This document shows, piece by piece, positions 986 through 32,784 of a stretch of DNA of 34,435 bases; position 1 is the stretch's first letter, and each line of letters starts with the position of its first letter. Origin of the DNA: a virus. The notes beneath the pieces were generated by a model, which did not search any database, had not been told where the DNA came from, and worked only from the letters and a program-made list of their open reading frames with translations. The translations under genes were made by a program, and so were the position numbers. Location of the stretch: the IMG/VR virus record IMGVR_UViG_3300021339_000009, positions 1-34,435 of that record, one strand, 5' to 3'.

Positions 986-1177
986 TCATGTCGAGGACCC
1001 CAGTTCACCCAGTCGGGTGCGGGTCGAGTCGATGCCGACCCGGATCGCGTGCGCCACGTCCCGCTGGGCGGCGATCGCATCATGCAGGATGCGGCGGAGC
1101 TGCACGTTCTCGTGCTCGGCCAGCGCCAGTGCCCGGGTCAGCCGTTCCACTTCCAGCGCCAGCTCGTCCGGGCTCAC
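986..1177 (-). CDS. Hypothetical coiled-coil protein, 63 aa
   Basis: Starts at GTG 1177, overlapping the TGA of the WhiB-fusion gene (GTGA), which fixes the start. Residues 5-30 (ELALEVERLTRALALAEHEN) have heptad-spaced Leu/Val and look like a parallel coiled coil; the remainder is helical and mildly basic. Such a coiled coil directly downstream of a regulator could be a dimeric accessory partner, but nothing in the sequence proves contact. Last member of the tightly coupled leftward run. No family recognised. Confidence 0.7.
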   Translation of the reverse strand: MSPDELALEVERLTRALALAEHENVQLRRILHDAIAAQRDVAHAIRVGIDSTRTRLGELGSST

Positions 1178-1872
1178 GCCGCAAGTTTGCCACGTGCCGC
1201 CGGTGTCGACTCGGCACGACGGCGCTGCACCCAGCCGTCCCAGTACCGCAGCTGGGCGTACGTCCAGAGTGGCCGGTCCGAGGACCAGGCGACAGGCCTG
1301 GGCACCCGGTTGGTGGTGCGCTCGCTGAACCGCCGCACCCAGCCCGCCACGGTGGCGTGGTCCCGGTCGTAGCGCCGGCCCAGTCCGGTGATGCCGTACA
1401 CGGCCACGGGTGTGCGCCCGGCCGGTACCGGGCCGGGCGCCCAGCCCCGAGGGTTGGCCCCGGCGGGGCGCCGGGCCTGCACCCATGCTTCCCATTCGGG
1501 CAGCGCGTCGGCGTGCCACAACGGGATGCGCCGCCCGCGGTCGGCCAGCTCCACGGCGTACGGCACGGGCACCCCGCCGGGCCGGGTCCACGGCCACACC
1601 TTGACCCACGAGCCGACGGTCTTGTCCGGCTGGCCGAGGCACCGGGCCAGCTCGTTCTGCCCGATGAGCACCAGCCTCCCCTTCCCGGCCCGGGTGTCTT
1701 CGTCGACCCCGGCCCACACGCCGTGCCCGTCGGCTGCGCCGGCGCATTCCCGCTGGACGGGGCACCCGGCACACACGGCCTGGGCCTGACGCAAGCGGTG
1801 CAGTTGCACGCGCGTCGGGTACCACAGCTCGGGGTCCATGCCCCGGCACGCTGCCTCCTGTCGCCAGTCCAT
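1174..1872 (-). CDS. WhiB-family Fe-S domain fused to two tandem helix-turn-helix modules
   Basis: A 232-residue predicted regulator. Residues 1-60 are a WhiB domain: C9, C34, C37 and C43 (C-x24-C-x2-C-x5-C) for a [4Fe-4S] cluster, the WRQEAAC opening and the G51-V-W-A-G turn. Known WhiB proteins usually stop near 80-120 residues and act by binding the primary sigma factor. Here about 170 residues follow, built from two similar units (about 67-135 and 155-225). Each has an ELA/LGR-type helix, a TV..WV recognition-like helix, a VPxP segment and an R-x-LW...W..WVQ-RR end, like AlpA/MerR-type winged HTH modules. The ATG at 1872 is chosen because it opens directly into the WhiB domain, 2 bp after the previous stop, with a G-rich stretch upstream. 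Likely a DNA-binding, redox- or NO-responsive transcription factor. Confidence 0.85.
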   Translation of the reverse strand: MDWRQEAACRGMDPELWYPTRVQLHRLRQAQAVCAGCPVQRECAGAADGHGVWAGVDEDTRAGKGRLVLIGQNELARCLGQPDKTVGSWVKVWPWTRPGGVPVPYAVELADRGRRIPLWHADALPEWEAWVQARRPAGANPRGWAPGPVPAGRTPVAVYGITGLGRRYDRDHATVAGWVRRFSERTTNRVPRPVAWSSDRPLWTYAQLRYWDGWVQRRRAESTPAARGKLAA

Positions 1873-1874
1873 CG

Positions 1875-2021
1875 CTAGTCCGCCCCCGCCCAACAGGCGG
1901 GGCACCGACCGTCTCGTTCCGAGTGGCCGGCACCGGCCAGGTTGAGGCAGCCGTCGCAGTGCTCGTCGTCGAGCAGCGGCGCCCCGCAGTCCGAGCAGTC
2001 CCCGTCGTCGTAGCCGCTCAT
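1875..2021 (-). CDS. Zinc-ribbon-like small protein, 48 aa
   Basis: Begins at ATG 2021 inside an ATGA overlap with the preceding gene; a GGAGAGGA-type ribosome site lies upstream. Three C-x2-C pairs are visible (CSDC, CDGC, CPAC) in an otherwise acidic chain, which would bind one zinc as a ribbon with a spare pair or two metals. No basic surface for DNA binding is obvious. It sits immediately upstream of the WhiB-fusion gene (2-bp gap). Function unknown; protein-protein adaptor or host-factor decoy are possibilities. Confidence 0.7.
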   Translation of the reverse strand: MSGYDDGDCSDCGAPLLDDEHCDGCLNLAGAGHSERDGRCPACWAGAD

Positions 2022-2183: not shown

Positions 2184-2447
2184 TCACCGGGCCCGGTGAT
2201 TGCTCGGCCCAGCCCAGCAGGCGACTGAGCCGTCGTTGTCCGACACCCGCTCGAAGAACGAAGCCCTGCCCGTGCCGGCCAGGTCGGCGGCGCTGTGCGC
2301 GCTCGGGTACCGCTCGTCGCCCGGCCCGTGCGGGGCGTACGACACCTGCCCGTCGGCGTACACGTACCAGCGCGCCCCGGCGGGGTACTGGGTGGCGGGG
2401 TCACCCCGGTACCGGTACACGGTCGGTCGGCTGTGCTCGTACATCAC
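2184..2447 (-). CDS. Hypothetical protein, 87 aa
   Basis: Starts at GTG 2447 (GTGA overlap with the sliding-clamp stop) or at the adjacent ATG 2444. The sequence is rich in Tyr, Arg and Gly, with a central ARWYVYADGQVSYAP beta-hairpin-like segment and a Ser/Ala/Asp-rich C-terminus. No Cys cluster or membrane segment. Its placement directly after the clamp gene suggests co-translation with it, but no role can be read from the sequence. Confidence 0.65.
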   Translation of the reverse strand: MMYEHSRPTVYRYRGDPATQYPAGARWYVYADGQVSYAPHGPGDERYPSAHSAADLAGTGRASFFERVSDNDGSVACWAGPSNHRAR

Positions 2448-3073
2448 GCCACCGCCCGGTCATCCCGGCGGGTCATGATCAGCCCGCGGAACCGGTCCCC
2501 GACCTCGACCAGCACCGCCCGGTTGGGGCGGGAGTCGAACGACATGCGCACGTACTCACCCTTCGCCACGCCCTTGCTGAACCGGCCCAACAGCTTGGGG
2601 TCGAACAGCACCGACGGGACGCCGTTGTCCCCGCTGGCGGGAATGAGCTGTGCCCAGCGCGGGAACGAGCAGGTGACGCCGTCGAGGTTCAGGCCGTACG
2701 GCCCGGCGTCGACGGCGAGCCTGGCCGGGCCGAAGGTGAGCTCGACGGGCCAGTTCCCGGCCTGCTTGGCGGTGGCGAGCACGGCCTTGGCTCCCGCCAG
2801 GGTGAGCGTCACGTCCACCGGCCCGCCCGGGGTGACACCCGGCAGCACCGGGTGGACGCCGGTCTCGCCCGTCCAGTCCAGCCGGTACGAGCCGACCGTG
2901 TACCGGTCGGTGGCGCTGAGGGTCAGCGAGCCCGGCTCGTCGTCGGGCCCACCGGCGGAGAAGTGCACGGCGTTGATGGCCGGCAACGTGCTGTCGGTGC
3001 TGGCGTGCTGGATCACGGCGTTGAGCGCGACCACGAGCGCGGGGCCCGGCACTCGTCCGATCGATGCGCTCAT
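2444..3073 (-). CDS. DnaN-like sliding clamp, two-domain size
   Basis: A 209-residue protein with beta-clamp hallmarks. The N-terminal helix ALNAVIQHASTDSTLPAIN is followed by a strand leading into L-x-L-x-ATDRYTVGSY (residues about 50-62), matching the ATDxxRxA signature. The C-terminal strand pair ends VLVEVGDRFRGLIMTRR, where clamps usually read yLLMPvR. The bacterial beta clamp has about 370 residues in three domains; this fits only two, the size of T4 gp45 or PCNA, which form trimers. It would tether a replicative polymerase (none is in this window). ATG 3073 is in an ATGA overlap with the upstream gene. Clamp family likely; oligomeric state is inference. Confidence 0.72.
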   Translation of the reverse strand: MSASIGRVPGPALVVALNAVIQHASTDSTLPAINAVHFSAGGPDDEPGSLTLSATDRYTVGSYRLDWTGETGVHPVLPGVTPGGPVDVTLTLAGAKAVLATAKQAGNWPVELTFGPARLAVDAGPYGLNLDGVTCSFPRWAQLIPASGDNGVPSVLFDPKLLGRFSKGVAKGEYVRMSFDSRPNRAVLVEVGDRFRGLIMTRRDDRAVA

Positions 3074-6124: not shown

Positions 6125-6156
6125 GGGGTGAGGGGGGGGGGAGGGGGGGAGGGGGG
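6125..6156 (+). repeat. G-quadruplex-forming G tract
   Basis: Four G-runs of 4, 10, 7 and 6 bases are separated by 1-3 bases on the plus strand. This satisfies the G4 pattern several times over. Flanking DNA (TGGTAAATGATCTATAAAC, 6158-6176) is unusually AT-rich for this genome. Very long G homopolymers are also prone to sequencing error, so exact length is uncertain. Confidence 0.7.
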
Positions 6157-6620: not shown

Positions 6621-6696
6621 GGGGACGTAGCTCAGCGGCCAGAGCGGTGGCCTCCAAACCCACTCGTCGCAGGTTCGAGTCCTGCCGTCTCTGCCA
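6621..6696 (+). tRNA. tRNA-Trp (anticodon CCA)
   Basis: A full 76-nt cloverleaf: acceptor GGGGACG/CGTCTCT with two G-U pairs, D-stem GCTC/GAGC, anticodon loop CTCCAAA with CCA at positions 34-36, a GTGG/CCAC anticodon stem plus one C-C mismatch at 31-39, T-arm GCAGG-TTCGAGT-CCTGC, discriminator G and encoded CCA at 6694-6696. It would read UGG codons. Its 3' end is 17 bp before the terminase start codon, so the tRNA must be cut out of the late transcript. Confidence 0.9.
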
Positions 6697-30546: not shown

Positions 30547-30794
30547 CACAGCACCTCCAGTCGGGTGATCGTGGCGTTCCAGGTGTCCAGCGGGGCGTGC
30601 TCCGGCGGGTCCAGGCGGGGCGGCCACGACCCGACGGGGGCCGAGAAGCGCTCGACGTCAGCCGGCAGCCGGCCGGCGGAGGCCGCCGCGCACAGCCGGC
30701 GCCAGGCGTGGTTGCGGGTGACGGCCCAGACGCACACGACGACCTCGTGGTCGTACAGCCTCAGCCGCACCCGCCAGGTGAGCAGGGCTTTCAC
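30546..30794 (-). CDS. Hypothetical protein, 82 aa, paralogue of downstream neighbour
   Basis: Starts at GTG 30794 in a GTGA overlap with the integrase stop. Its pattern WRVRLRLYDHEVVVCVWAVT-helix-...-TITRLEVL parallels the next gene: strand, strand, Trp-containing helix, terminal strand LEVL. Tightly coupled to the integrase, so it may be a recombination-directionality or accessory factor, but it lacks an obvious HTH. No family recognised. Confidence 0.62.
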   Translation of the reverse strand: MKALLTWRVRLRLYDHEVVVCVWAVTRNHAWRRLCAAASAGRLPADVERFSAPVGSWPPRLDPPEHAPLDTWNATITRLEVL

Positions 30795-31822
30795 GACACG
30801 ACCTCCAGCTTGTGGATCTTCTCCGGCTGGGCGGGCTGGAACATCTCCGCACCCGCAAGCAGCCTATCCCGGCGGGTGCGGAACCACTCGACCCCGATGT
30901 ACGCCGCGGTCTGCTTCACGTCCGAGTGGTGCAGCCAGGAGGCTACGACCTCCATGGCGCTGTGCCAGTCCAGCCCGGCGCCCTCGGCGTGCAGCTCCTC
31001 GAACAGGTTCCGCGCGGCCGAGCGCCGCAGCGCGTGCGTCCCCTCATAGCGCAGTGCACCCGCCTCCAGCTGGTCCTCGGTCAGGCCGAGCACCTGCGTC
31101 AGGCGCCGCTGGGTCAGGTCGGTCAGCTTGTACCGCTGCTCGGTGGGGTGGTACACCCACTCGCGCCCGACGCGCTGGCGCTGCGGGATCAGGTACCAGT
31201 CCGGGTCCAGCGGGCCGGCCAGCTCCTGGTAGGCAACCAGCCAGCGGCGCAGCTCCCGGTCCAGTGGGGCCACGATCGGCAGGCGGTCCTGCTTCTTCGA
31301 CTTCCACACGTCCCAGAAGATCCGGCTGCTCGCCAGGTCGACGTGCCCGACCCGGCGGGTGCACAGCTCCTGATCCCGCCCGGCGGTGTACACGCCCAGC
31401 GCCATGGCGAAACGCTCCCACGGGTCGGCGATGTCGTCGTACATGGCCCGCACCTGATCGGTGCGCAGCCAGATGCGCTGCCGCTGCTCGCCGGGCGCCA
31501 CCCGGCGGATCACGTCCCGCACCTCGTGCTGCATCATCCCGCGCCCGGCCGCCCAGCGGACGAACGCGGCCAGGCTCTGCGCGTGCTTGTTGAACGTCGT
31601 GGCGGCGACCCGTTCGCGGAGTCCGCCCGGCCCGTACAGGTAGTCCTCCATGTCCCCGGGGCCGAGGTGCTTGGGGGACCGCCGGGTGGGCGTCCACCAG
31701 TCGACCAGCTGGCCGACGACGGAGGTCTCCCCCGCAACCGTCGCGGGCTGAACCTGGTTGCGCCGGATGCCGATGTACTGGTCGGCCACGGCTCGCATTG
31801 TGAGTCTAACCGCAGGTCGCAT
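30791..31822 (-). CDS. Tyrosine site-specific recombinase (phage integrase)
   Basis: A 343-residue integrase that would recombine phage attP with a host attB. Residues 10-95 form the SAM-like core-binding domain (VVGQLVDWW ... FNKHAQSLAAFVRWAAGRG). The catalytic domain shows R149 (YTAGRDQEL), K177 in the beta-hairpin (SKKQDRLPIV), H263-x-x-R266 (GTHALRRS), H299 (WLHHSD) and the nucleophile Y308 (AAYIGVEW), nine residues after H299 as usual. ATG 31822 has an AAAGGTGAGG ribosome site. A dedicated arm-binding domain is not evident in the short N-terminus. The array of GTTGC sites begins 20 bp upstream. Implies a temperate life style. Confidence 0.9.
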   Translation of the reverse strand: MRPAVRLTMRAVADQYIGIRRNQVQPATVAGETSVVGQLVDWWTPTRRSPKHLGPGDMEDYLYGPGGLRERVAATTFNKHAQSLAAFVRWAAGRGMMQHEVRDVIRRVAPGEQRQRIWLRTDQVRAMYDDIADPWERFAMALGVYTAGRDQELCTRRVGHVDLASSRIFWDVWKSKKQDRLPIVAPLDRELRRWLVAYQELAGPLDPDWYLIPQRQRVGREWVYHPTEQRYKLTDLTQRRLTQVLGLTEDQLEAGALRYEGTHALRRSAARNLFEELHAEGAGLDWHSAMEVVASWLHHSDVKQTAAYIGVEWFRTRRDRLLAGAEMFQPAQPEKIHKLEVVS

Positions 31823-31841: not shown

Positions 31842-31994
31842 GTTGCTACAGCACGCAACGTACCATAGTTGCGTCCGGAGTCCGCTTCTACTGAGTCCCC
31901 TATCCTGACCTGCACTGATCATACCCGCAACTTTGACGAGTGTGCACCACCCCCACCAGGCAACGTTGCGTTTCCAGTTGCGTGCCGGAGCAAC
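31842..31994. repeat. Array of eight GTTGC motifs in integrase/HTH control region
   Basis: GTTGC or its complement GCAAC occurs at 31842, 31855, 31868, 31927, 31960, 31965, 31977 and 31990. The best copies extend to AGTTGCGT (31867, 31976), and 31961-31968 is the palindrome CAACGTTG. The region separates the leftward integrase from the rightward HTH gene. These could be operators for the HTH product, or arm-type sites of the integrase. TATGGT (minus strand, 31862-31867) is a possible leftward -10 that would be covered by sites. Confidence 0.62.
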
Positions 31995-32046: not shown

Positions 32047-32481
32047 ATGACTAGGCTGCGGCAGCTGCCGCCGGACGACGAGCTGATGAAGATGAAAGCC
32101 GAGGGGATGAGCCACGCGGCCATCGCCCGGAGGTACGACACCAGTCGGCAGGCTGTCGACAAAGCGGTCAAGGCGATCTACGCCCGGCTCGGGCGCGAGA
32201 CGGTGACCAACGACAAGTTCAAGCGCTACTGGCCCTGGGCGCAGCAGCTCCACACCGAGCACTGCCGGGGCTACTTCTACGACTGCCTGCGGTTGTACAC
32301 GCGCGACAAGTACAACCTGCCCCCGGCGCTCGACGCAGATGAAAGCAGCCGGCTGGCCCGCTTCGTGAGCGAGGCCAACCGGCTGCGGCTGGTGGTGTAC
32401 TACGACGGCGACGAGCCTACCGGGTTCGTGTTCAGGTCACGCCGCGAGGGGGACGGGGACGCGTTCCTGGTTGAACGCTGA
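32047..32481 (+). CDS. Helix-turn-helix DNA-binding protein, 144 aa (regulator candidate)
   Basis: ATG 32047 follows a GAAGGAG site at 9 bases. Residues 8-42 hold an HTH (DDELMKMKAEGMSHAAIARR, recognition helix TSRQAVDKAVKAIYARLG). The C-terminal 90 residues contain a tryptophan/tyrosine-rich helix (FKRYWPWAQQLHTEHCRGYF) and a terminal beta-hairpin (RLRLVVYYDGDEPTGFVFRS), possibly for dimerisation or ligand binding. Divergent from the integrase, next to the GTTGC array, it is the best candidate in the window for an immunity or recombination regulator. Its last 45 bp overlap the convergent WhiB gene. Confidence 0.75.
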   Translation: MTRLRQLPPDDELMKMKAEGMSHAAIARRYDTSRQAVDKAVKAIYARLGRETVTNDKFKRYWPWAQQLHTEHCRGYFYDCLRLYTRDKYNLPPALDADESSRLARFVSEANRLRLVVYYDGDEPTGFVFRSRREGDGDAFLVER

Positions 32482-32784
32482 GTCGGCGCGCTGGGCGGGG
32501 GAGGCCCCGCCCCAGACGCCGTGCCTCTCGTCCCGGAGCAACGCCGCGGACAGGCAGTCGAGCCGGACGGGACAGGTCCAGCAGATGCGCCGGGCCTGGG
32601 TGTAGCCCTCGGCGTGCCAGATCTCGGGATCGACCTCGGAGCACCGGGCCCGGTCGATCCAGCCCGGGTCGGGCTCGACCGGCTCGAAGGTCCGTAGCTG
32701 CTCGGTGACCTTGCGGTTGATGTGCGCCGGCCAGCACTCCGGGCACACGCGGTGGGCGTTGTGCTTGCAGTGCTCGACGGTCAC
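32437..32784 (-). CDS. WhiB-family protein with extra N-terminal metal-binding motif
   Basis: A 115-residue WhiB: C48, C68, C71 and C77 form the [4Fe-4S] ligands (RARCSEVDPEIW and ICWTCPVRLDC) and H88-G-V-W-G-G supplies the sigma-contacting turn. Before this domain, residues 6-17 read C-x-H-x5-C-x2-C (CKHNAHRVCPEC), a second possible metal site not present in standard WhiB proteins. Phage WhiB proteins can repress host whiB genes and modulate sigma-factor function (known for mycobacteriophage TM4 WhiB). GTG 32784 is in a GTGA overlap with the upstream gene. Its end overlaps the convergent HTH gene. Confidence 0.87.
   Translation of the reverse strand: MTVEHCKHNAHRVCPECWPAHINRKVTEQLRTFEPVEPDPGWIDRARCSEVDPEIWHAEGYTQARRICWTCPVRLDCLSAALLRDERHGVWGGASPAQRADSAFNQERVPVPLAA

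Follow-up and report, generated by a model that had tools for sequence, protein, structure and literature searches.

A virus-encoded WhiB protein extended by two tandem, likely MerR/AlpA-like winged helices

The short basic tail of WhiB proteins normally contacts DNA. In one uncultured actinobacterial virus, a WhiB domain is followed instead by two similar C-terminal units, which raises the question of what these units are and what they might contribute to such a protein. Host WhiB proteins dock on region 4 of sigma factors through a near-identical core and differ in how, or whether, they touch DNA, leaving promoter choice open (PMC10245118). A natural WhiB protein with two sequence-reading modules of its own would suit the study and swapping of that choice. 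The window analysed here is the whole linear virus record of 34,435 bases; its terminase shares about 40% identity with relatives from Streptomyces phages, Manuel among them.

The fusion gene runs on the minus strand from an ATG at 1872 to a stop codon at 1174-1176 (Table 1). The gene ahead of it stops 2 nt before this ATG, and the gene behind it, for which a family match was sought and none found, has a start codon that overlaps the fusion gene's stop, a spacing that is typical of translational coupling. Third-position G+C stays high along the frame, at 0.88, 0.96 and 0.86 in its three segments. Two separate genes, or a frameshift join, are rejected on the basis of the single frame, the third-position G+C and the GTGA overlap; together with the 2-nt gap upstream, these features argue for one continuous gene in which a frameshift artefact is unlikely.

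Table 1. Coordinates of the fusion gene, its parts and its immediate neighbours in the window.
Feature	Coordinates	Strand	Basis or remark
Whole fusion gene, WhiB and two winged-helix units (predicted)	1174..1872	-	232 aa
WhiB domain, residues 1-62	1687..1872	-	Pfam, PDB WhiB1 match, alignment
Unit 1, residues 66-137, likely MerR/AlpA-like winged helix	1462..1677	-	homology to unit 2 and profile
Pro/Gly-rich linker, residues 138-152	1417..1461	-	sequence
Unit 2, residues 153-222, likely winged HTH	1207..1416	-	repeat, profile comparison, structure model
Next gene, 63 aa	986..1177	-	GTG start overlaps fusion-gene stop (GTGA)
Preceding gene, 48 aa, three CxxC pairs, zinc-ribbon-like	1875..2021	-	family match sub-threshold

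Several other features of the window were recorded. The frame at 2444-3073 (-) has a RusA-like resolvase family as its best PHROG match (phrog_12598) and a DNA polymerase processivity factor as its second (phrog_947); the resolvase label of phrog_12598 may be wrong. A tRNA-Trp gene (anticodon CCA) lies at 6621-6696 (+), immediately upstream of the terminase gene, and a G-rich tract at 6125-6156, with three near-copies of GGGGGGAGGGGGG, lies in the gap ahead of that gene. Between an integrase gene (-) and an HTH gene (+), eight GTTGC/GCAAC motifs crowd into about 150 bp (31842-31994), against at most four per 200-bp stretch elsewhere in the window, and an 18-nt inverted pair (31842-31859 and 31977-31994, 89%) lies among them. 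These motifs are possible candidates for operators or integrase arm sites.

The N-terminal part of the fusion protein is a WhiB domain, matched by Pfam PF02467 over residues 3-62 (E 1.2e-13; bit score 51.9, cut-off 23.6). Its cysteines, C9, C34, C37 and C43, follow the spacing C-x24-C-x2-C-x5-C, and GVWAG at residues 51-55 matches the motif G[IV]W[GA]G given for Wbl proteins (PMC10245118). The closest PDB match is WhiB1 (6ono, E 2.2e-10), and in the alignment W3, F17, F18 and W60 of WhiB1 correspond to W3, W17, Y18 and W53, so that all four sigma-anchor or cluster positions are aromatic in the fusion protein. In WhiB3, changes of F31, F32 or W76, the equivalents of WhiB1 F17, F18 and W60, abolish sigma binding, and W3 of WhiB1 contributes to the stability of the cluster and to formation of the complex (PMC10245118). 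A [4Fe-4S] cluster and sigma docking are accordingly predicted for this domain from its sequence. The basic tail is nearly absent, with residues 59-65 running directly into unit 1, and the net charge rises from -2 in the WhiB part to +3 in unit 1 and +8 in unit 2.

The two units behind the WhiB domain are a diverged repeat. Their BLOSUM62 local alignment (residues 66-137 against 153-222) scores 78, compared with 29.0 +/- 5.7 and a maximum of 60 in 2,000 shuffles; because the score exceeds every shuffle, neither chance nor composition explains the repeat. The motifs TV..WV, VPxP, PLW and L..W..WVQ.RR stand in register along both units, as TVGSWV, VPVP, PLW and L..WEAWVQARR in unit 1 and as TVAGWV, VPRP, PLW and L..WDGWVQRRR in unit 2. 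The units share 34% identity, a divergence that implies that they were duplicated long ago or recruited as a pair.

The fold of the units is less immediate. Curated family models, HTH_17, MerR and AlpA among them, give no match over cut-off for either unit, and the HTH matches of unit 1 are all sub-threshold; the units are therefore assigned to MerR and AlpA by fold-level kinship rather than family membership. Their motif looks like that of actinobacterial AlpA-type regulators, and a probe of this type retrieved genuine family members (L150-L162). In a profile-profile comparison, the unit pair matched AlpA/MerR-like winged helices of this kind at 94% (score 39.7), compared with at most 6.7% and 17.8 in 300 column shuffles and 10.5 for the reversed control, and the match keeps one register from the HTH through the wing to the last helix. 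These AlpA-like relatives match the HTH_17 profile at 96%; the units themselves match it directly at just 8%, across the HTH helices. A profile of the units and their relatives, in which the relatives dominate, matched, in the PDB, the MerR domain of CarA (E 9e-6), that of CarH (2.5e-4) and an AlpA protein (8c3t, 0.002). A plain sequence HMM built from the relatives scores the units at shuffle level, and the kinship must consequently be remote.

Structure prediction points the same way for unit 2. AlphaFold without an alignment modelled the whole protein poorly (pLDDT 34). With six rows as input, namely the two units themselves and four viral-contig relatives, unit 2 reached a pLDDT of 78.9, a result that is not independent of the profile evidence because presumed relatives entered the alignment. 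Helices at positions 9-16 and 20-32, strands at 43-45 and 48-52 and a helix at 56-69 in this model form a winged helix-turn-helix, its wing made of two strands and its last helix C-terminal. Foldseek returned nothing at E <= 0.001 for the model. The best matches from a second structural aligner are of MerR type (BrlR, Z 7.8; 3gpv, 7.5; RacA, 7.2), followed by NmlR (7.0), BmrR (6.9) and MtaN (6.8), although values below 8 may by themselves mean no more than a common arrangement. Combined with the profile evidence, these matches make a MerR-type winged-helix assignment likely, and repeat kinship with unit 2 extends it to unit 1; both units are thus likely to be diverged MerR/AlpA-like winged helices. 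An earlier note on this DNA had proposed a complete four-cysteine WhiB domain joined in one polypeptide to two similar winged-HTH modules with shared motifs, which, if real, would couple a redox- or NO-sensitive cluster, and possibly sigma-factor contact, to two sequence-specific DNA contacts. The domain and its fusion to the C-terminal units stand on the Pfam match, the cysteines, GVWAG, the neighbour overlaps and codon-position G+C, the similarity of the units is borne out by their self-alignment, and the winged-HTH proposal agrees with the profile comparison and the unit 2 model. The fusion gene, its WhiB domain and the internal repeat are the best-supported claims, followed by the winged-helix fold and then by mechanism.

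The same note had taken WhiB proteins of phages and hosts to be single-domain as a rule, ending in no more than a short basic tail, and for phages this does not survive comparison. Long C-terminal extensions are common among 85 WhiB ORFs of viral contigs (median 45 aa; at least 60 aa in 30 and at least 100 aa in nine), a biased sample taken from the 80 loci most similar to the WhiB domain of the fusion. HTH-containing C-termini over the Pfam cut-off occur in at least two other WhiB proteins, one on a viral contig (L047) and one on a plasmid (L020), and a weaker HTH match lies behind a third WhiB domain (L029). The fusion is a real and uncommon variation on WhiB with a DNA-binding tail, a theme that recurs in phages and plasmids, and shows phages repeatedly attaching varied DNA-binding modules to WhiB.

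Relatives of the C-terminal half itself were sought widely. None was found in phages or viral contigs; matches in genome contigs cover the WhiB part alone, and plasmids searched with the whole protein matched that part and at most about 40 residues past it. Searches of 297, 395 and 396 genomes (about 1,080) for the C-terminal half yielded none, with weak scattered matches among the 297; they included no positive control, and their emptiness does not prove absence. A profile of the two units drew chance matches only, DNA-level patterns built on PxP..W turned up nothing of use, synteny by the clamp gene led to no relatives, and synteny by the terminase led to four short contigs, none of which carries a relative of the C-terminal units. 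A MerR/AlpA-like tandem behind WhiB was found in none of these phage, plasmid, viral-contig and genome searches. Literature searches likewise gave no WhiB-HTH fusions, and the available text of a survey that covers WhiB and MerR proteins of actinophages (PMC8612146) is silent on them.

Other WhiB arrangements came to light in the course of this comparison. The window holds a second, ordinary WhiB gene at 32437-32784 (-), encoding 115 aa without a C-terminal domain (Pfam E 2.1e-16). Long matches in L040, L046 and L080 were rejected as full-length relatives, as each spans two neighbouring WhiB genes, and the extensions of L055 and L082, two HTHs by eye, have neither an internal repeat nor a family over cut-off. 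Five viral contigs (L036, L040, L041, L043 and L046) carry two adjoining WhiB genes, the second with a C-terminus that is winged-helix-like by eye and has only sub-threshold Pfam matches. Extensions of 100-170 aa in further phage WhiB proteins (L045, L053, L098, also L084 and L097) appear HNH-nuclease-like by eye; those of L097 and L098 were scanned and match no Pfam family. Fruitloop gp55 is annotated as WhiB/HNH.

The reading that best accommodates these features, to which we give a probability of roughly 0.55, is a transcription factor of the phage whose WhiB domain sits on sigma region 4 while the winged helices, in place of the basic tail, select the promoter. The WhiB domain would hold a [4Fe-4S] cluster and, like host WhiB1, WhiB3 and WhiB7, bind the host's principal sigma factor at region 4. 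Two covalently linked MerR/AlpA-type winged helices would take over the place of the basic tail, and they probably supply the DNA contact, because that tail is nearly absent. Their target might be a bipartite site or a direct repeat close to the -35 region, so that WhiB-bound RNA polymerase would be brought to, or held off, chosen phage or host promoters; DNA binding, operator shape and targets are what we infer here. This transcription-factor reading is favoured by the WhiB match over cut-off, the aromatic anchors, the repeat, the profile, the model, the basic units and the recurring WhiB-HTH fusions. It is weakened by the lack of a homologue conserving the architecture, the failure to find an operator, the null result of the plain HMM, the dependence of the model on the profile, the empty Foldseek search and Z-scores below 8. 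The available text on BldC (PMC5859096) describes lone MerR-like domains binding direct repeats as cooperative multimers, and a covalent tandem could bind such repeats similarly within one chain. A more specific version, in which the Fe-S, sigma-docking WhiB domain and the tandem form a redox-responsive, dimer-independent promoter selector that reads direct-repeat or two-part operators in the style of BldC, is offered tentatively and is rather doubtful.

Alternatively, the tandem could be an Xis/AlpA-like recombination directionality factor or architectural protein for the tyrosine integrase encoded in the window at 30791-31822, with WhiB tying excision to the state of the host. Winged helices of the AlpA/Xis type are typical excisionases, and no other AlpA/HTH_17-like frame in the window scores significantly, one weak HTH match aside. 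However, the fusion gene lies far from the integrase gene in the record, in an operon-like run that includes the zinc-ribbon-like gene and follows a same-strand gene for a sliding clamp. Excisionases are small and consist of a single domain, and lambda Xis matches only weakly (Z 3.8). An excision role is unlikely. Structural matches to CbpM in complex with the J-domain of CbpA (Z 6.4), RppC (5.7) and gpNu1 (4.2) would fit adaptors for protein binding or packaging sites in place of promoter readers, with WhiB serving solely as a sigma or redox anchor, but MerR proteins that bind promoters make up most of the matches, unit 2 has a strong positive charge and WhiB partners are transcriptional, making such adaptors slightly less probable still. 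That the units are not winged helices at all, their likeness being a product of a composition rich in W, P and R and of bias in the alignment, would fit the failure of curated families, the poor single-sequence model and the shuffle-level HMM scores, but is very improbable given a profile-profile score well beyond the shuffled and reversed controls in one register and a coherent unit 2 model with MerR matches.

The proposed transcription factor combines traits of several known systems. With WhiB1/WblE (6ono, 5oay) and the Wbl family it shares the four cysteines, G[IV]W[GA]G, the aromatic sigma-anchor positions and an MDWR start, whereas those proteins have a basic C-terminal tail where the fusion has two predicted winged-helix units. 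The units resemble MerR, AlpA and HTH_17 proteins in their HTH, two-strand wing, C-terminal helix, PxP behind the HTH and conserved W in the last helix; they differ in a longer loop between HTH and wing, in their two copies per chain, in falling below every Pfam cut-off and in lacking a coiled coil and an effector domain. BldC of Streptomyces, as the available text of PMC5859096 presents it, is likewise a small MerR-like winged helix with no dimerisation coil, but it has one domain per chain, whereas the fusion joins two covalently and adds WhiB. The mycobacteriophage immunity repressor (PMC9283540), with two DNA-binding domains per monomer and an asymmetric site, is comparable solely in how it works and, unlike the fusion, has no WhiB domain. 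Closest in layout are L047, L020 and perhaps L029, in which WhiB precedes an HTH in one chain, as in the fusion; their HTHs are single, homeodomain-like or sigma-region-4-like, and unrelated in sequence to the fusion units.
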